From assembly GCA_947259355.1 (NCBI GenBank), contig CAMYMF010000002.1, positions 1 to 64,000 of the forward strand: a stretch of DNA of 64,000 nt. The letters are read 5' to 3'. Shown in pieces: positions 15,462-23,473 of the stretch (its first letter is position 1; the number at the start of each line of letters is the position of its first letter). A model generated the notes under the pieces. That model was given only the letters and a program-made list of their open reading frames with translations. It did not search any database and was not told the origin of the DNA. The position numbers and the translations under genes are program-made. This DNA is from an uncultured Nitrospirota bacterium (GTDB lineage: Bacteria; CG2-30-53-67).

Positions 15462-15792
15462 GGCGGAATTCTAACAGAGCGACCGTGAGAAAACAATCTT
15501 CTCGTTGCCCAGCTGGGATACTGCCAGGCCATCCGATGCCACGGGCCGCACCCGAGGGGAGACTTCGAGCGCACGCCTCGGTGCTGCGAGGCCGCCATGT
15601 CATGCCCGTCGAAGGCGTTGTTGTCTTTTTGTGAATTAAGGTAACGAATTGATTTTGCTTAGTTTCCAGCCGTGTGTCGCCCAGGGGTGTACGGATTTGA
15701 CGACAAGGGCGGCGAAAAACCGGCACGGCAAACAGACGACATGATGCCTGAAAGCTTTTATATATCAGCGGGTTAAGGAGGTTGTGGCTCAG
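15462..15792. other. Intergenic region upstream of the small membrane protein
   Basis: About 330 bases between priA (minus) and the sigma-54 promoter at 15793. I see no convincing gene or RNA. It is the place where priA's promoter and any activator sites for the sigma-54 promoter would lie, but I could not find a copy of the TGTCTCAGAA element that is present upstream of the next sigma-54 promoter. Confidence 0.4.
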
Positions 15793-15810
15793 TTGGCATG
15801 CAAGTTGCTT
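15793..15810 (+). promoter_or_regulatory. Sigma-54 promoter 1 (-24/-12)
   Basis: TTGGCATGCAAGTTGCTT contains the invariant GG (15795-15796) and GC (15807-15808) separated by exactly 10 bases, with TGGCA and TTGC context matching the sigma-54 consensus. The start point would be near 15820, about 85 bases before the ATG at 15906. It shares TTGGCAT and AAGTTGCT with the second site at 16510. Confidence 0.75.
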
Positions 15811-15832
15811 GAACAATAGGGCAGATAAGGCG

Positions 15833-15849
15833 ACAGCGCGAATCGCTGT
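15833..15849 (+). other. Small hairpin in the 5' UTR
   Basis: ACAGCG, five-base loop CGAAT, CGCTGT: a perfect 6-bp inverted repeat between the sigma-54 start point and the ribosome site of the small membrane protein. It could be an RNA stem or a protein site. Short enough to arise by chance. Confidence 0.3.
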
Positions 15850-15905
15850 TCAGAAAAGAAGAAACTTGAGTCCCACACCATTCCTTGCTGAAAGGAGGAG
15901 TCGCC

Positions 15906-16238
15906 ATGAAAGAGAAAAACGTTGAAGTCATCAAAACGAGTATGAAGGTCGGTGCCGTGCTGGGTGGTTTGGTCTTCCTCATTTTCGGGATCGTCCCTGG
16001 GTTCCATTTCGGCGGAGCCGGCACGGTCATGCTGCTGAGCAAACTGACCGGCGGTCCTCTCGAGTTTACCCTTTTTATCCGCACGGTGGTGGTGCTCGGA
16101 ATTCTGCTCGGGATCCTCTGCCTCGGAACACTGAGCATCGTCCTGGGCTCTGTTTTCGGTACGCTCGCCGGGGTGCTCGTCAATGCTCTGAGCTTACTGC
16201 GGGTCCATGAGGAGAAGGAGGAGATGGTTCGGCATTAG
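15906..16238 (+). CDS. Small three-span membrane protein of the respiratory island
   Basis: 110 residues. The ATG at 15906 follows a strong AAAGGAGG. Hydrophobic spans are visible at about residues 16-33 (VGAVLGGLVFLIFGIVPGFH), 60-77 and 78-98 (VVLGILLGILCLGTLSIVLG), ending in a charged tail (RVHEEKEEMVRH). No cofactor motif or known family is recognised. It has its own sigma-54 promoter upstream and a terminator downstream, so it is a single-gene unit. The nearly identical promoter of the following cytochrome operon suggests shared control and a role in assembling or adjusting that membrane complex (inference). Confidence 0.8.
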   Translation: MKEKNVEVIKTSMKVGAVLGGLVFLIFGIVPGFHFGGAGTVMLLSKLTGGPLEFTLFIRTVVVLGILLGILCLGTLSIVLGSVFGTLAGVLVNALSLLRVHEEKEEMVRH

Positions 16239-16283
16239 ATCTTCCCTTGGTTCTACGGAAGCGCTTCCCTTCAATTCGTCTCT

Positions 16284-16318
16284 ACGCCTCCGGCGAAACT
16301 GAGCCGGAGGCGTTCTTG
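16284..16318 (+). terminator. Rho-independent terminator
   Basis: Perfect 11-bp stem (16284-16294 with 16303-16313; CGCCTCCGGC and GCCGGAGGCG at its core), 8-base loop, then a short T-rich tail (TCTTG). It lies 46 bases after the stop of the small membrane protein and separates it from the cytochrome operon. Confidence 0.75.
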
Positions 16319-16326
16319 TAGCAAAA

Positions 16327-16448
16327 TGTCTCAGAAGACTAAATTTGTAACAAATATATTACAGCACGAAATATCAATGAGTTACAGGAACTAGAAGTGC
16401 ATCCCGCGTTTGCCGTGATACAAAAAGACGACACGCGATTCTGAGACA
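16327..16448 (+). promoter_or_regulatory. Candidate upstream activator sites (inverted TGTCTCAGAA pair)
   Basis: TGTCTCAGAA at 16327-16336 and its exact reverse complement TTCTGAGACA at 16439-16448. They lie about 180 and 70 bases upstream of the -24 element at 16512, the usual range for NtrC-type enhancer sites. The activator would be the regulator encoded at 18708. Inferred from position and repetition only. Confidence 0.4.
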
Positions 16449-16509
16449 GCCAGAGAGATGTAGAACAGGGAACCCAATAAAAACAGCATGTTACGGACAA
16501 ATTCAAAAT

Positions 16510-16526
16510 TTGGCATATAAGTTGCT
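16510..16526 (+). promoter_or_regulatory. Sigma-54 promoter 2 (-24/-12) of the cytochrome operon
   Basis: TTGGCATATAAGTTGCT with GG (16512-16513) and GC (16524-16525) exactly 10 bases apart. The start point would be near 16537, about 65 bases before the cytochrome ATG. The surrounding 250 bases are AT-rich compared with the neighbourhood. Confidence 0.78.
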
Positions 16527-16601: not shown

Positions 16602-17588
16602 ATGGGCCGACGGTACCCATTATTGTCGTACCTGATTCTGCTGGTCGCATTCTTCTTCCCGAATCGTCTCCTGTTCGCAGACAACCTGTCTTGCCTCATC
16701 TGCCATGAGTCGCTCAAGGGAACTTACGTGACGGCCAAAGGTGTGGAAAGCCGCCTCCATGTCAACGGTGAGAAGTTTGCGGCCTCTGTCCACGGGGACC
16801 TGGAATGCACCAACTGCCATCTGGGCTACGAGGACAATCCGCACAGCTCCGTCGAGGAAAACGTAGACCCAGAACTCCTGGGCATTGCCAAGGCCATCGC
16901 GAAGAAAAGTCCCGTCGATCCGGTGGCTCAGGCGGCCTGTGCGCAGTGTCACCCGGACGTCTATGAGGACGTGAAACAGAGCGTCCACGGCGCGAACATC
17001 TTTGACAAGAAGGAGGTCGACGGGGCCCTCTGCCTGGACTGCCACGGTTCGCCCCACGAGATCATGCACGTTGCCGGCGCCGGACACGATGCGTCGGCAT
17101 CGCCAGTGGCCTATGGCCGTGTCGTGGAGACCTGCGGGCAATGCCATGAGAAGAAGAGTGTCTCGTTGAAGTACGGGTTCAGCACCAAGATCATTGAACG
17201 CTACAATGAGAGTTTTCATGGCAAGAAGTACCATCTTGGCGGGAGCAACCTGCCGGTGTGCACCACGTGTCACGGTGCGCACAACATACGTGCCCAGAAC
17301 GACCCCGAGGCCATGGTCTATGGGGTGAACAAGATCGAGCTTTGCGGTCAGTGCCACGCAGGTGCCAATGCCAAGTTTGTGGCCGCCATTACCCATAAGC
17401 CGATCGGCAAAGACAACCCGATCCCGTACTACGCGGAAAAGGGACTGATTTTGCTGACCTTCCTCGTGATTTCGGGTTGTGCCATTCACATCGTTCTGGA
17501 CATCTTCGCGCTGGTTCGTCAGACCGCACAGGTGAGAAAAAGGAGGAGAAATGAAGTCGCACGCAATGAGTCTTCCGTCGCAGGTTGA
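16602..17588 (+). CDS. Seven-heme membrane-anchored cytochrome c (CbcA-like)
   Basis: 328 residues. A signal peptide (LLSYLILLVAFFFPNRLLFA) exports the protein. Seven CxxCH heme sites follow: CLICH, CTNCH, CAQCH, CLDCH, CGQCH, CTTCH, CGQCH. Distal histidines recur in SVHGD, SVHGAN and SFHGKKYHLGG. A C-terminal helix (LILLTFLVISGCAIHIVLDIF) anchors it in the inner membrane with heme domains outside. The next gene, a b-type cytochrome, starts 38 bases before this one ends, so the two subunits are coupled. This c/b pair matches the layout of CbcA/CbcB of Geobacter sulfurreducens, which moves electrons from menaquinol to periplasmic cytochromes. Function here is inferred from that likeness. ATG chosen for its GGAAAGGGGG site and signal peptide. 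Confidence 0.88.
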   Translation: MGRRYPLLSYLILLVAFFFPNRLLFADNLSCLICHESLKGTYVTAKGVESRLHVNGEKFAASVHGDLECTNCHLGYEDNPHSSVEENVDPELLGIAKAIAKKSPVDPVAQAACAQCHPDVYEDVKQSVHGANIFDKKEVDGALCLDCHGSPHEIMHVAGAGHDASASPVAYGRVVETCGQCHEKKSVSLKYGFSTKIIERYNESFHGKKYHLGGSNLPVCTTCHGAHNIRAQNDPEAMVYGVNKIELCGQCHAGANAKFVAAITHKPIGKDNPIPYYAEKGLILLTFLVISGCAIHIVLDIFALVRQTAQVRKRRRNEVARNESSVAG

Positions 17589-18318
17589 TGCCCTACCGAG
17601 GGAAGTGCAACGCTTTGACATGCATTTTCGGATTCAGCATATCATCATGCTGACCACTTTTCTGCTCTTGTTCTTTACGGGGTGGGCGCTCAAGTTCTCA
17701 GAGGTGGAAACCTCCCAGGCGTGGATCCGCTTCTGGGGCGGTCCCAAGACGGCCGGTATCATCCACCGGGTGGCAGGGATTGTGATGCTGCTCGATGGGG
17801 TCTACCATGTTGCCTACCTGGTGTACCGTTTTGCCAAGGGGAAGCTCCGATTCGATCTGGTGCCGGTCTGGAAGGACGTGGTCGATTTCTACCAGAACGT
17901 CCTCTACTTTCTGGGGGCCTCCGAGGAAAAGCCCAAGTTTCGCAAGTTCAACTATCTGCAGAAGTTCGACTATTGGGCGGTCTTCTGGGGTGTCTTTGTC
18001 ATCGGAACGTCTGGTCTGGCGCTGGCCTTCCCGACCAAGGCCGCGCTGCTATTTCCCGCTTGGACGACGAACTGGATCTGGGAATTGATCTATATCATGC
18101 ACAGTGATGAGGCGCTGCTGGCCATCGTCTTCATCCTCTTCTGGCATTTCTATAACGAGCATCTCCGGCCGGAAGTTTTTCCGATGAGCTGGGTCTGGAT
18201 CACGGGAAAAATGTCGGTATCCGATCTCCGAGAGCACCATCCAGCGGAGTTCGAACGCCTCTTCCCGGAAGCTGCTGAGAAGGGAGCCGCCGGGGATGAG
18301 TCTGCCGGTTCCATGTGA
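17551..18318 (+). CDS. b-type cytochrome quinol oxidoreductase subunit (CbcB-like)
   Basis: 255 residues of the cytochrome b561/HydC/FdhI-like fold. Four main spans are seen: IIMLTTFLLLFFTGWALKFS, an IIHRVAGIVMLLDGVYHVAY helix with heme-ligand histidines, YWAVFWGVFVIGTSGLALAF, and ALLAIVFILFWHFYNEHLRP with another histidine pair. N-terminal RFDMHFRIQH also carries candidate heme ligands. The cytoplasmic tail ends DLREHHPAEFERLFPE, a segment repeated almost unchanged at the end of the fused protein at 20044. It probably oxidises menaquinol and passes electrons to the seven-heme partner encoded just upstream (38-base overlap). Confidence 0.87.
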   Translation: MKSHAMSLPSQVDALPREVQRFDMHFRIQHIIMLTTFLLLFFTGWALKFSEVETSQAWIRFWGGPKTAGIIHRVAGIVMLLDGVYHVAYLVYRFAKGKLRFDLVPVWKDVVDFYQNVLYFLGASEEKPKFRKFNYLQKFDYWAVFWGVFVIGTSGLALAFPTKAALLFPAWTTNWIWELIYIMHSDEALLAIVFILFWHFYNEHLRPEVFPMSWVWITGKMSVSDLREHHPAEFERLFPEAAEKGAAGDESAGSM

Positions 18319-18326
18319 GGTGCGCC

Positions 18327-18689
18327 ATGAGACTGAAGAACCTGCTGTCACTGCTTGTCGTGGGAATCCTGGCCGCCTGGGCCTGGCAGCATTCGGCCTA
18401 CTCCATTTGGAGTTTGCTCCCCCACGCTGCGGCACTCCAGGAAAAGCCCCGAGCCGCTGCCCAGGAGGTCCGTGCCAACTCGGTCAAGGATCTGCCCTGT
18501 TTCAAATGCCATATCTATGAACGCTACATCCAGGAGCCGTCGGAGGGGGTCTTTTCCCATGCCCTGCACGTGCGCTTTGACTACCACTGCAACCAGTGCC
18601 ACAGTTTCCATGGGCATCGTCAGATGGTAATCAGTACCACGCTGTGCACCCGTTGCCACGAGGCCGTTCCGGAAATAAAAAGCCGCTGA
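18327..18689 (+). CDS. Small triheme periplasmic cytochrome c
   Basis: 120 residues. N-terminal hydrophobic helix (NLLSLLVVGILAAWAW) serves as signal or anchor. Three CxxCH sites: CFKCH, CNQCH and CTRCH, with extra histidines in FSHALHVRFDYH and SFHGH, resembling class III (c7-type) cytochromes. The ATG at 18327 has GAGGTG upstream and follows the b-type subunit by 8 bases. A small soluble or tethered triheme protein is a reasonable periplasmic acceptor for the upstream c/b complex (inference). Confidence 0.82.
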   Translation: MRLKNLLSLLVVGILAAWAWQHSAYSIWSLLPHAAALQEKPRAAAQEVRANSVKDLPCFKCHIYERYIQEPSEGVFSHALHVRFDYHCNQCHSFHGHRQMVISTTLCTRCHEAVPEIKSR

Positions 18690-18707: not shown

Positions 18708-20195
18708 ATGAATCCCAGAATCCTGGTGATCGACGATGAACAGCCGATGCGCGAGATGCTGCAGCGGCTTCTAGAGGACTCTCAGTATGAGGTTTCGTCG
18801 GCCCGTAACGGCGAGGAGGGGCTTGCGCTCTTTGATCAGGAGCCTTTCCATCTGGTGATCACCGATCTGAGCATGCCCGGTATGGATGGCATCGAGGTGT
18901 TGCGAACGCTGAAGGAGAGGGGCCCCCATGTGCCGGTCATTCTCGTGACGGCCTTCGCCACCATCGACACAGCCGTGGAAGCCATCAAGGCCGGTGCCTA
19001 CGATTACATCACCAAACCCTTCGAGCCAGACACCATCGAAATCACCATCAAGAATGCCTTGGCCCACAAACAGCTGGTCGATGAGAACCGTCAGCTGAAA
19101 CAACGACTCGACGATGTAGAAAAGAAATCCCATATCATCGGCGTTTCTCCCAAGATGGAAGAAGTGTTCCATCTGGTAGAGAAGGTGGCGCCCACGGATG
19201 CGACGGTGCTCATTGAGGGGGAAAGCGGAACCGGCAAGGAGCTCATTGCCCGCCGGCTGCACCAGCAAAGCACTCGAGCGGACGAGGCATTCATATCGAT
19301 CAATTGCGGCGCCCTTCCCGAGACGCTACTGGAAAGCGAGCTCTTCGGGTATGAGAAGGGTGCCTTCACGGGTGCAACAACCGCTAAGGAGGGGATCTTC
19401 AAAGCCGCCCATGGGGGGACGCTCTTTCTCGATGAGATCGGTGAGATGCCATTGGCCCTGCAAGTGAAGCTTCTGCGGGTGCTGCAGGACAAACACGTAC
19501 TCACCATCGGGGGACGCAAGAGCTTCCCGGTGAATGTGCGTATCCTCTCAGCCACGAATAAGAATCTGAAGGAAGAGGTGGCTGCAGGGCGGTTTCGCGA
19601 AGATCTCTATTATCGAATCAATGTGTTTACAATCCATCTGCCTCCCTTGCGGGACCGGGTCGAGGACATTCCCCATCTGCTCAACCATTTCATCAAGAAA
19701 TACAACAAGGAGTTCGACAAGAGTGTCGCAACCATTTCGCCGGAACTGATGCGATTCTTCAAGGACTACCACTGGCCCGGCAACATTCGCGAGTTGGAGA
19801 ACTATGTGGAACGGGCCATTCTTATGACGGAGGGAACGCACATGCAGCTCTCGGCTTTGCCGGATGATATTCAGCAGGTCTCCCCCGTTGGAGCCGGCAA
19901 GAGACGCGAGGCGTTTCTGACCTCAGCGGTGTTGTCTCGAGAGCCGCGCGAGAGGCTCGAATTCCCCGACCGAACTTCTACGAAAAGCTCAAGAAATACG
20001 GCATCACGCCGAGGCGGAAAGAAACCCATCACAGTGGAAGGTGATGTTTCTTCGACTGGCAGCGGTCTCTTGTTTGGCAGCAGTCCTACTGGGGCCATCC
20101 GCGGCCGCGGTGCAGGCCGCGGCAGAAAGCACGCCGCCCGTGGCCTGTCTGGGTTGCCACAGTGCCCTGCGGGGAAGGAACTACCTTCACCGTGA
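18708..20195 (+). CDS. NtrC-family sigma-54 response regulator, frameshifted C-terminus
   Basis: As read, 495 residues. Receiver domain residues 1-120 with phosphoacceptor Asp53 (ITDLSMPGMDG). The sigma-54 activation domain has Walker A GESGTGKE, the sigma-54 contact loop GAFTGA at about 218, and WPGNIRELENYVERAIL. The last 80 residues as read look unlike protein. In the +2 frame the same DNA encodes SRAAREARIPRPNFYEKL, a textbook Fis-type DNA-binding helix-turn-helix. That frame ends in a TGA at 20042-20044 that overlaps the ATG of the next gene. The intact protein therefore probably ended at 20044, and an indel lies near 19925-19945. The natural partner is the kinase at 21626, and the likely targets are the two sigma-54 promoters. 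It resembles BccR of Geobacter in context. Confidence 0.85.
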   Translation: MNPRILVIDDEQPMREMLQRLLEDSQYEVSSARNGEEGLALFDQEPFHLVITDLSMPGMDGIEVLRTLKERGPHVPVILVTAFATIDTAVEAIKAGAYDYITKPFEPDTIEITIKNALAHKQLVDENRQLKQRLDDVEKKSHIIGVSPKMEEVFHLVEKVAPTDATVLIEGESGTGKELIARRLHQQSTRADEAFISINCGALPETLLESELFGYEKGAFTGATTAKEGIFKAAHGGTLFLDEIGEMPLALQVKLLRVLQDKHVLTIGGRKSFPVNVRILSATNKNLKEEVAAGRFREDLYYRINVFTIHLPPLRDRVEDIPHLLNHFIKKYNKEFDKSVATISPELMRFFKDYHWPGNIRELENYVERAILMTEGTHMQLSALPDDIQQVSPVGAGKRREAFLTSAVLSREPRERLEFPDRTSTKSSRNTASRRGGKKPITVEGDVSSTGSGLLFGSSPTGAIRGRGAGRGRKHAARGLSGLPQCPAGKELPSP

Positions 20196-21714
20196 GCGCT
20201 ACGTCCGTTCACCCCACGGCGACCTTCCTTGTCTCGCCTGCCACAGCCCCGCTCGAATTGCGGGCATTGATGCCGTTCACCGCGACAGTGTGCCTGAGCA
20301 CCGTTTGCCCGAGGCGGCGCCCCCTCAAAATCTCAGCAATAAGAGCGCTTTTTCGGAGGCCCTGGTGGCCTGTGGCCGGTGCCATGCCGAGGCCTATGCC
20401 CGGGTTGCGGAGAGTGTCCATGGGCGCGCGGTTCTCCAGCAGGGGATTGGAGCGGCCGCCTTCTGTACGGACTGCCACACCCCCATTCATGGCCTCACCC
20501 CACGATCGGAGTCCTCCTCTTCGGTGGCACGGGCACAACTACTGGGAACGTGCAGCCGGTGCCACGCCGACCAAACGATCGCCTCCCGTTACAACCTAAA
20601 CATTTATGTGGTCCAGTCTTACAAGGCCCATTTTCACGGCAAAAAGTATGCGTTGGGCGGGCAGGAAACCCCGACATGCACCTTCTGCCACGGACACCAC
20701 GACATACGATCCGTCACGGACCCGCAGGCCCCCGTGGCCGGGGAACACAAAGTGGCGCTTTGTGCCCGCTGCCACCCCGGTGCCGATGCGGCTTTTGCCT
20801 CAGCTTTCACGCACACGCCATTGAGCGCCGAGGGGAATCGGGCGGCGTTCTTGGTGCGCCGGGTGCTCATCGTTCTCCTGGTTATCATCGTTTGCCTGCT
20901 GACGGTGCACATTCTGCTCGATCTTTATGCGGAAATGCGCGCACGATATCGCCCCCGGGCATCCACGACACGGCCGCCCGATATACCGTGGTCCCTTATC
21001 CAAAGCCTTCCCAGGCGCATCGAGCGGATGGATTTACACCTGCGCATCCAGCACGGGCTGATGATCGTGGCCGTGGTTTATCTGGCGGCATCCGGCATTG
21101 CCCTGAAGTTTCCCGAACTGCGGTTCTCCCAGGCCTGGATCAACCTGTGGGGAGGTGTGGAGAATGCGGGACATCTTCACCGTTTTGCGGCTCTCATCCT
21201 GATGATCGATGCGCTCTATCATCTGGGTTATCTGCTGGTATCTGGGCTACGTGGGCGAATGCATTTTTCCATGCTGCCTCGGAGCAGGGATGCCCAGCAA
21301 CTCCTCCAGAACATTCGCTACCTTTGTGGTCGCACAGATGTTCGGCCCTATTTCGGCAAATTCAATTATGTTCAGAAGCTCGATTACTGGCTGGTGGCTG
21401 TGGTGATTCTGGTCATGATCGCAACGGGCCTGATCTATTGGTTCCCCACAGTGGCGATCCGATTCCTGCCTGAGGCCGTGTTCCCGTGGATTTGGAGTGT
21501 CGTCTATGTGACACACAGCACGGAAGCCTTCCTGGTGCTGTTTGTCTCATTTGCGTGGCATTTCTACAACGTCCATTTAAAGAGTCGGGTGTTCCCTATG
21601 AGTTGGGTCTGGATCACTGGTTGGATCACCCTCGAGGATCTCCGGGAGGACTACCCTGCAGAGTTTGAGCGGCTCGTTGATCAGGAGCGCCGGAAGGCGT
21701 ATAGGGAAAGTTGA
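20044..21714 (+). CDS. Fused seven-heme cytochrome c / cytochrome b protein
   Basis: 556 residues. Signal peptide (LAAVSCLAAVLLGPSAAAV), then seven CxxCH sites: CLGCH, CLACH, CGRCH, CTDCH, CSRCH, CTFCH, CARCH. A transmembrane helix (LIVLLVIIVCLLTVHILLDL) leads straight into a b561-type domain: RMDLHLRIQHGLMIVAVVYL, HLHRFAALILMIDALYHLGY, LVAVVILVMIATGLIYWFPT and LVLFVSFAWHFYNVHLKSRV, ending DLREDYPAEFERLVDQ. It is a one-chain paralogue of the split pair at 16602/17551, with the same number of hemes and domain order. The one-chain layout recalls CbcL of Geobacter. The ATG at 20044 overlaps the restored stop of the regulator gene. The last 89 bases overlap the convergent kinase gene. Confidence 0.88.
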   Translation: MFLRLAAVSCLAAVLLGPSAAAVQAAAESTPPVACLGCHSALRGRNYLHRERYVRSPHGDLPCLACHSPARIAGIDAVHRDSVPEHRLPEAAPPQNLSNKSAFSEALVACGRCHAEAYARVAESVHGRAVLQQGIGAAAFCTDCHTPIHGLTPRSESSSSVARAQLLGTCSRCHADQTIASRYNLNIYVVQSYKAHFHGKKYALGGQETPTCTFCHGHHDIRSVTDPQAPVAGEHKVALCARCHPGADAAFASAFTHTPLSAEGNRAAFLVRRVLIVLLVIIVCLLTVHILLDLYAEMRARYRPRASTTRPPDIPWSLIQSLPRRIERMDLHLRIQHGLMIVAVVYLAASGIALKFPELRFSQAWINLWGGVENAGHLHRFAALILMIDALYHLGYLLVSGLRGRMHFSMLPRSRDAQQLLQNIRYLCGRTDVRPYFGKFNYVQKLDYWLVAVVILVMIATGLIYWFPTVAIRFLPEAVFPWIWSVVYVTHSTEAFLVLFVSFAWHFYNVHLKSRVFPMSWVWITGWITLEDLREDYPAEFERLVDQERRKAYRES

Positions 21715-23473
21715 TGGTGAATGTGGTCCCTTCACCGAGGGTGCTCGAAACCCGGATCTGGCCCCGGTGGTCGGAGACGATTCGCTGTGTGATACTCAGC
21801 CCCAGTCCCGTGCCTTTTTCCTCGGACTTGGTGGTGAAGAAGGGATCGAAAATCCTCGGAAGCAGCTCCGGCGGGATTCCGGTTCCTGTGTCGGCAATCT
21901 CCACGACCAGCATTTCCCCGTCGTCGGAACTCCTTGTTGAGACGGTGAGGCTCCCGCCGGAAGGCATGGCCTGGAACGAGTTGTTGAACAGGTTCACGAA
22001 GACCTGCTGCAGGCGGGAAGGGTTTCCAGTGATTTGCCGCACATTGGGACTGAGCCTTTTCACGACCCGGTAATTTCGCTCTTTTTTGAACTGATGCTCC
22101 ACCATGGCCAGGGAGTCTTCGATGACTCGATTGATGTCGAGCGTCTCGTGCTCCTGGACGGCGGGGCGTGAGTACATCAGCAGATTTCTGCTCAGGCGTT
22201 CGATGCGCCGGGCAGCCTCTGAAATCCTCTGAAGTTGTTCCCGCTCCTCACCCTGGGGTTCTCGGCGGAGCAGCATTCGTGTATATCCGACAATGATGGA
22301 GAGCGGATTTCCGACTTCGTGGGCGATGCCCGCAGCCATGCCGCCCAGGGACGCGAGCTTCTCTTGATGGATCAGTTGCTCGATCGTGAGGTCCAGCTCC
22401 TCCCTCTGTTTTTGAAGGGCCGCGACCATATTGTTCAGGGAGTCGGCCAGATCGGACAGTTCGTCCTCCGAGTCAATATGGATTCGCTGCGTCAGATCAC
22501 CGCGGACAACGCTGTCCGTCAACAGCGCCATCTCTTTGAGGGGCCGGCTCATGGCATTCACAATGAAAAAATTGATGAGTGTGAGAATAACCAGTATGAC
22601 CACGGAAATGGCAATGTAGTTGTTGATGACCTTGCGTTTTGTCTCGGCCAGATCGTTGGTGGACATGATCAAACCGAAGATGGCTTTGGGGGTCTGGCCT
22701 AAACGCAGGGGCGCATAGACGGCCTTGTACTCCTTGTCTGACAGGTACACCTTAGCAAGTACGTGTTCGCCGTGGACGAGCGTCTGCTGCAGCAGCTGGG
22801 GGGTGATCTTGGCTTCGACCTTTTCATGCCACTGGGGGTCGTGAAAAGTGGAGGCAACGACCCGGTCGTTCTGCAAGATGAAAAGGTCGTTCTTGACGAG
22901 TGCCTTGATCTCGTTGAGGTAGTCGTGATCGAGGCTGAAGCCGACCATAACGAAATCGGTCCTGCCATCCACCTCGTAGGGGGCCACTGCGTCGAAATCG
23001 AAGCGGGGTGTATTGTCGGTTGTCTTGAAGATGAGGTCGCTGTAAGACTCGCCGCGCAGGCCCCTCTTTACCAGCTCCCGCTGATCGCGATTGCCGCCGC
23101 TGAGGAATCGCTGCGGCTCGATATAGATTTTCACGCCCTCCTTGACCAGCAGATCCATATGGGAGATGTCCATGGACCGCTCCAGCACCGATTCGGCCTG
23201 CTTAGCGGATCTGCTGCGGAAGAAGGCCAGTAGGCTCCCGTATTGGACGGACTGCTTCTCCTTTTCACGGATCAACGCTTCGGCGGTCTCCCGGTAGGCC
23301 AGAACATCCCTGTCGGTCCGGGCCTCGATATTCTTGGACAATATCTGGAAAACAAGCAGGACCACCATCAGGATGGCCAGAAAGGAGAAAACGATGAAGG
23401 GAAAGAGGATCTTGCTCTGGATCGAGCGCCGTTCTATAAAGAAGTCGCGGCAGAAAGTGGAAACGCGTCCCAT
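21626..23473 (-). CDS. Membrane sensor histidine kinase (NtrB-like output)
   Basis: 615 residues. First helix about residues 21-43 (ILFPFIVFSFLAILMVVLLV), a periplasmic sensor region of about 240 residues, a second helix (IAISVVILVILTLINFFIVN), a HAMP linker (RPLKEMALLTDSVVRGDLTQ), then HisKA with phospho-His385 (AAGIAHEVGNPLSI) and a HATPase with DTGTGIP and EKGTGLGLSI. No receiver is attached. It is convergent with the cytochrome operon, and its final 30 residues are encoded opposite the end of the fused cytochrome gene. It is the nearest kinase to the NtrC-type regulator at 18708 and probably its partner. The signal sensed is unknown. Confidence 0.88.
   Translation of the reverse strand: MGRVSTFCRDFFIERRSIQSKILFPFIVFSFLAILMVVLLVFQILSKNIEARTDRDVLAYRETAEALIREKEKQSVQYGSLLAFFRSRSAKQAESVLERSMDISHMDLLVKEGVKIYIEPQRFLSGGNRDQRELVKRGLRGESYSDLIFKTTDNTPRFDFDAVAPYEVDGRTDFVMVGFSLDHDYLNEIKALVKNDLFILQNDRVVASTFHDPQWHEKVEAKITPQLLQQTLVHGEHVLAKVYLSDKEYKAVYAPLRLGQTPKAIFGLIMSTNDLAETKRKVINNYIAISVVILVILTLINFFIVNAMSRPLKEMALLTDSVVRGDLTQRIHIDSEDELSDLADSLNNMVAALQKQREELDLTIEQLIHQEKLASLGGMAAGIAHEVGNPLSIIVGYTRMLLRREPQGEEREQLQRISEAARRIERLSRNLLMYSRPAVQEHETLDINRVIEDSLAMVEHQFKKERNYRVVKRLSPNVRQITGNPSRLQQVFVNLFNNSFQAMPSGGSLTVSTRSSDDGEMLVVEIADTGTGIPPELLPRIFDPFFTTKSEEKGTGLGLSITQRIVSDHRGQIRVSSTLGEGTTFTINFPYTPSGAPDQRAAQTLQGSPPGDPRG

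Follow-up and report, generated by a model that had tools for sequence, protein, structure and literature searches.

Introduction

Small membrane proteins that are controlled by sigma-54 together with an upstream activating sequence (UAS) and IHF are known from the Psp system (pspG, pspABC). For the Geobacter cytochrome complex CbcBA, induction is reportedly assisted by BccR, which is said to be an RpoN-type regulator. CbcBA belongs to the Cbc5 system (cbcEDCBA) and combines a heptaheme c-type cytochrome with a PF01292 cytochrome b (GSU0594/GSU0593) (PMC7726332), and its induction takes place in the absence of readily reduced acceptors (PMC12307469). No paper naming GSU0595 or GSU0598 was found in a literature search.

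The cluster described here shares features with each of these systems. It lies in a window of 64,000 nucleotides, the whole stretch of DNA that was analyzed, from an uncultured Nitrospirota bacterium, and all features are given on the forward strand unless stated otherwise. Domain search, supported by relatives for the first protein, identifies a heptaheme c-type cytochrome with a C-terminal membrane anchor (16602–17588) and a b561-type cytochrome b (PF01292; 17551–18318). These are followed by a small c-type cytochrome (18315–18689; ORF translation and domain search) with three CXXCH motifs by eye and by a CbcL-like fusion of a seven-heme c domain with a b561 domain (20041–21714; domain search and alignment). 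The composition of a heptaheme c, a PF01292 b subunit and further c-type cytochromes is that of CbcBA, whereas the small-protein unit and the extra seven-heme c-b fusion are additions of this cluster. The fusion resembles CbcL in joining a c domain to a b561 domain, and it is ~25–28% identical over most of its length to fused proteins of a Geobacter-like family; however, it contains seven CXXCH motifs versus the nine c hemes of CbcL, and it belongs to a sigma-54 cluster in which c and b subunits also occur as a split pair. In presumed Geobacteraceae, which were recognized by one marker only, the closest relatives of the window's heptaheme c are nine-heme CbcL-like c-b fusions and not a separate heptaheme protein. 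By analogy, the cluster may work like Geobacter CbcBA/CbcL (PMC7726332, PMC12307469, PMC10989804), but we assign it to neither because heme count and split arrangement differ, although its cytochromes are closer in sequence to CbcL-type fusions than to any separate CbcA that was found.

In its regulatory parts, namely −24/−12 promoters, palindromic UAS, an IHF-like site and a receiver-AAA-Fis regulator, the cluster resembles the NtrC-family sigma-54 regulons, and it differs from them by its own enhancer type, TGT-N12-ACA, and by a small-protein family as first target. As in the Psp system, a small membrane protein is under predicted sigma-54 control with UAS and an IHF-like site, but no sequence relation to the window's small protein was found in Pfam, NCBIfam and PDB at the usual cut-offs.

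Two Sigma-54 Promoters

The initial annotation had described two nearly matching sigma-54 promoters, and their coordinates proved right: GG-N10-GC is present in TTGGCATGCAAGTTGCT (15793) and in TTGGCATATAAGTTGCT (16510), one site per intergenic gap. Both promoters, P1 (TTGGCATGCAAGTTGCTT; 15793–15810) and P2 (TTGGCATATAAGTTGCT; 16510–16526), were obtained by pattern match and have TGGCAC/TTGC-like elements. Five genomes of the same family keep GG-N10-GC at both positions, although the spacers drift. A single match to the RpoN domain PF04552 was found per genome in six genomes.

Chance similarity of the two hexamer pairs, with other promoters being used, is a highly improbable explanation. Sites matching the sigma-54 consensus in at least 10 of 12 positions are not rare over 64 kb (four versus 5.1 expected from shuffles), and the TTGGCATNNAAGTTGCT-type pattern is in no excess in the genome at three mismatches (62 matches versus 67 for the reversed control), as a chance origin would have it. 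Yet two such sites within these two gaps are unlikely, with 0.028 expected from dinucleotide shuffles (P(≥2) = 0.0005), both positions are conserved in the five genomes together with enhancer and IHF-like sites, and a promoter scan found no sigma-70-like site in the region.

The shared core TTGGCATN4AAGTTGCT, which had been read as the sign of co-regulation, did not hold up in this role. Its form equals the sigma-54 consensus of the genome and its spacer bases are not conserved; since the bases between −24 and −12 differ among relatives, the near identity of P1 and P2 is not what selection keeps. A scan of the 64-kb window and of the 3.1 Mb genome returned P1 and P2 as the only exact matches to TTGGCATNNAAGTTGCT, and the next-nearest matches (one to two mismatches) lie, without the enhancer pair, 5′ of unrelated genes, including those for a YeeE-like transporter and for PEP-CTERM-like proteins. 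Because of these near matches and the missing excess at three mismatches, the core by itself does not define a regulon, and we rejected it as a regulon signature. Promoters of the form TTGGCAT-N5-TTGCT precede genes for PEP-CTERM-like and other secreted-looking proteins elsewhere in this genome (L005, L007, L008; contigs C10, C19 and C52 of G000), and this form is therefore the general sigma-54 consensus of the genome. By one near core match in the same genome (C19:72830), a UAS-like site was seen at −153 (10.6 bits).

The first predicted transcript contains a single ORF, as had been stated, which encodes a small membrane protein of 110 amino acids (15906–16238). The proposed terminator between the units is partly borne out: the hairpin at 16284–16313 is stable by folding (−25 kcal/mol, z −4.0), and the gap between the small gene and the heptaheme c gene holds hairpins with T-runs in relatives too, but the T-tail of the window's hairpin is weak and it was not listed by a terminator scanner. 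Four further family genomes (L031, L032, L034, L037) carry a site 5′ of the small gene and another 5′ of the heptaheme c gene. The gene order in these loci is small protein, heptaheme c, b561, small c, response regulator, c-b fusion and opposed kinase, L037 (genome G004) lying on a short contig on which the order is visible in part only.

Paired Enhancers and IHF-Like Sites

Upstream of P1, the proximal UAS TGTACGGATTTGACGACA (15688–15705; −106) is a TGT-N12-ACA palindrome conserved in P1 regions, and an enhancer-like distal site, TGTTGTCTTTTTGTGAAT (15619–15636; −175), is the second-best match of a profile built from other genera. P2 has a distal UAS, TGTAACAAATATATTACA (16346–16363; −165), supported by TGT-N12-ACA and by the profile, and a proximal UAS with one mismatch, TGATACAAAAAGACGACA (16416–16433; −95), which was found by the profile and occupies the same place at P2 of L031, L032 and L037. 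Searching for WATCAR-N4-TTR revealed IHF-like sites at −31 of P1 (TATCAGCGGGTTA; 15763–15775) and, with one mismatch, at −30 of P2 (AAACAGCATGTTA; 16481–16493), and thus a palindromic enhancer and a putative DNA-bending site accompany each promoter.

This arrangement recurs in relatives. Eleven upstream regions contain 14 TGT-N12-ACA palindromes compared with 0.7 ± 0.85 in shuffles, and other spacings give 0–4. The palindrome starts 103–106 bp ahead of the −24 element in all six P1 regions, and the distal P1 site lies at −170 to −176 in five of the six. With leave-one-genus-out profiles, no P1 or P2 lacks the proximal site, and most also have the distal site ~70 bp further upstream, which was not found at P2 of L034 and P1 of L033. 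The IHF-like site (0–1 mismatch) is located at −30/−31 in 6/6 P1 regions and in 2/5 P2 regions, the window's P2 among them. The common architecture at P1 and P2 is an argument for one regulator. Sigma-54 dependence and co-regulation of both units have strong support from this enhancer/IHF architecture and from phylogenetic footprinting of both promoters, not from the near-identical core.

Across six family genomes, the combined promoter-plus-UAS pattern has 12 matches versus 0 in the control, mostly at the cytochrome cluster or at a small-protein paralogue; G003, which is 99% complete, is without the pattern, without the cytochrome and without the small protein. The description as a two-unit regulon fits the window's genome as judged by strict patterns; in a sister species, a further copy of the small protein and perhaps an oxidase gene are under similar control. 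The copy (L033:9825–10318; G001:C120) is encoded away from cytochromes and has a UAS at −103, a perfect IHF-like site and a sigma-54 promoter. At L053/L056 (G001:C146:21012–21119), genes which by eye encode a FAD-linked oxidase and an Fe-S protein follow a sigma-54 promoter with a strong UAS match (15.6 bits) at −93, making them a possible extra regulon member.

The Cluster-Encoded Regulator

The probable activator is an NtrC-type response regulator (18708–20195; domain matches) with a receiver domain, a sigma-54 AAA+ domain and the GAFTGA motif. In the window its Fis-type helix-turn-helix (HTH) is disrupted: compared with L031, 58 bp of the DNA-binding domain are missing at the junction 19923/19924, after which the frame is lost. 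The deletion may be an artifact of assembly, or it may be genuine, in which case the regulon of this strain would be weakened. A sensor histidine kinase with a HAMP domain and a weak sCache match (21626–23473; domain search) is encoded on the reverse strand.

The deletion, together with the ~25 sigma-54 activator domains carried by the genome, would suit the explanation that P1 and P2 are true sigma-54 promoters whose activator is encoded elsewhere, the cluster regulator being irrelevant or defunct. We consider this unlikely, since the HTH of the cluster regulator is intact in relatives and since the enhancer type covaries with its recognition helix across phyla. In a second phylum (that of G267), the clusters most like the window's, L245 and L240, have 49–53% identity in the heptaheme c and 66–70% in the b subunit. 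Both carry TGT-N12-ACA at −91 (20.8 and 14.0 bits, respectively), and the L245 regulator has a recognition helix of the same type as that of the window cluster, PRPNFYEKLKKY; the L240 contig stops before any regulator comes into view. Where the regulator of a second-phylum cluster ends in GIDLATLYRKFKKYGI or similar, the enhancer is TTTGCA-N4-TGCAAA instead. Sites of this kind occur at small-protein promoters of this phylum at −57 to −60 and −77 to −90 in 28 of 32 loci (0.42 expected). Between the small gene and the heptaheme c gene of L245 and L240, only a hairpin and no second promoter was recognized, so that the small gene appears to lead a single operon comprising both units.

Control of P1 and P2 by the cluster-encoded response regulator through paired enhancers and IHF, with co-regulation of the small protein and cytochrome units, is therefore very probable as judged from the conserved sites; the promoters and the co-regulation of both units are well supported.

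A Family of Small Membrane Proteins

The small protein had been described as having three membrane spans. Membership in the class of small membrane proteins stands, but the span count is uncertain and the AlphaFold2 model (pLDDT 75) consists of two long helices (residues 3–48 and 52–109). The protein belongs to no known family: nothing above the curated cut-off was found in Pfam and NCBIfam, profile search against PDB gave no match at usual cut-offs, and a PDB fold search with the model returned nothing useful. Profile matches to Romo1 (E 0.0025, two members) and the glycine zipper (E 0.09) were dismissed as weak and at chance level.

A strong heptaheme-c match (E < 1e-100) is found in 8 of 386 sampled genomes, and the small protein adjoins it in all eight, while G182 has the small protein without such a match; this co-occurrence test is not fully independent because the heptaheme-c profile was built in part from clusters found via the small protein. 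In the second phylum, the small protein is present in 69 of 296 genomes, usually in tandem, and ~ten of 40 loci lie beside a heptaheme-c/b operon, the rest elsewhere. An upstream sigma-54 promoter (at least 9/12) was found at 35 of 42 second-phylum loci versus 1.7 expected, mostly at a distance of 50–60 bp from the start codon. Sigma-54 control thus characterizes the small-protein family and is not confined to the cytochrome cluster. Across the second phylum (L228–L267, L097), tandem pairs combine a sigma-54 promoter with TTTGCA-N4-TGCAAA enhancers, and many of these pairs have no cytochrome gene nearby.

How closely the protein is tied to the cytochrome complex, as the initial annotation had proposed, has to be weighed against a second explanation, in which it is a general membrane protein, serving for example envelope stress or membrane organization, that responds to the same sigma-54 signal and has no cytochrome partner. 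This is a serious possibility to which we give somewhat less than even weight. Many tandem pairs lack cytochrome neighbors, 26 of 30 such loci carry a sigma-54 promoter and mostly the same TTTGCA-N4-TGCAAA enhancer as the cytochrome-linked pairs, and two tandem pairs (L237, L243) are near genes whose products look ZraP/Spy-like by eye; against it, several lineages encode the small protein next to the heptaheme-c/b561 pair, with the small genes often opening the operon, and a strong heptaheme-c match never occurred without it among the 386 genomes sampled. The tie stands as synteny, co-occurrence and co-regulation; a physical interaction with the cytochrome complex has partial support, and most of the sampled second-phylum pairs are away from cytochromes. 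A functional partnership with the cytochrome complex is plausible.

The family as a whole is probably an undescribed group of small membrane proteins, rich in glycine and built of two helices, which are mostly encoded in tandem, occur in several phyla and nearly always have their own sigma-54 promoter, along with a short leader and tandem enhancers at fixed positions. The use of one enhancer type for cytochrome-linked and stand-alone pairs in one phylum would suggest a sigma-54 program dedicated to respiration or to the membrane.

Proposed Mechanism and Perspective

We propose that the adjacent histidine kinase presumably phosphorylates the response regulator, whose dimers would bind the paired TGT-N12-ACA sites upstream of each promoter, mostly ~70 bp apart, with IHF bending the DNA between enhancer and promoter. 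The signal, which we infer by analogy, might be low-potential acceptors or a quinone pool in a strongly reduced state. On sensor firing, transcription from P1 would yield the small membrane protein and transcription from P2 the heptaheme-c/b561 quinol:cytochrome oxidoreductase with the CbcL-like fusion downstream. The small protein would most likely aid the quinol-oxidizing machinery or its membrane.

For a quinol-oxidizing multiheme cytochrome in an uncultured lineage, this analysis names a probable regulator, the DNA that it would bind and the genes that it would control. The pairing of helix and enhancer, PRPNFYEKLKKY with TGT-N12-ACA and IDLATLYRKFKKYG with TTTGCA-N4-TGCAAA, can be tested directly in vitro. 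Moreover, the analysis exposes an unannotated family of small proteins, whose promoter type is constant enough to act as an annotation marker.
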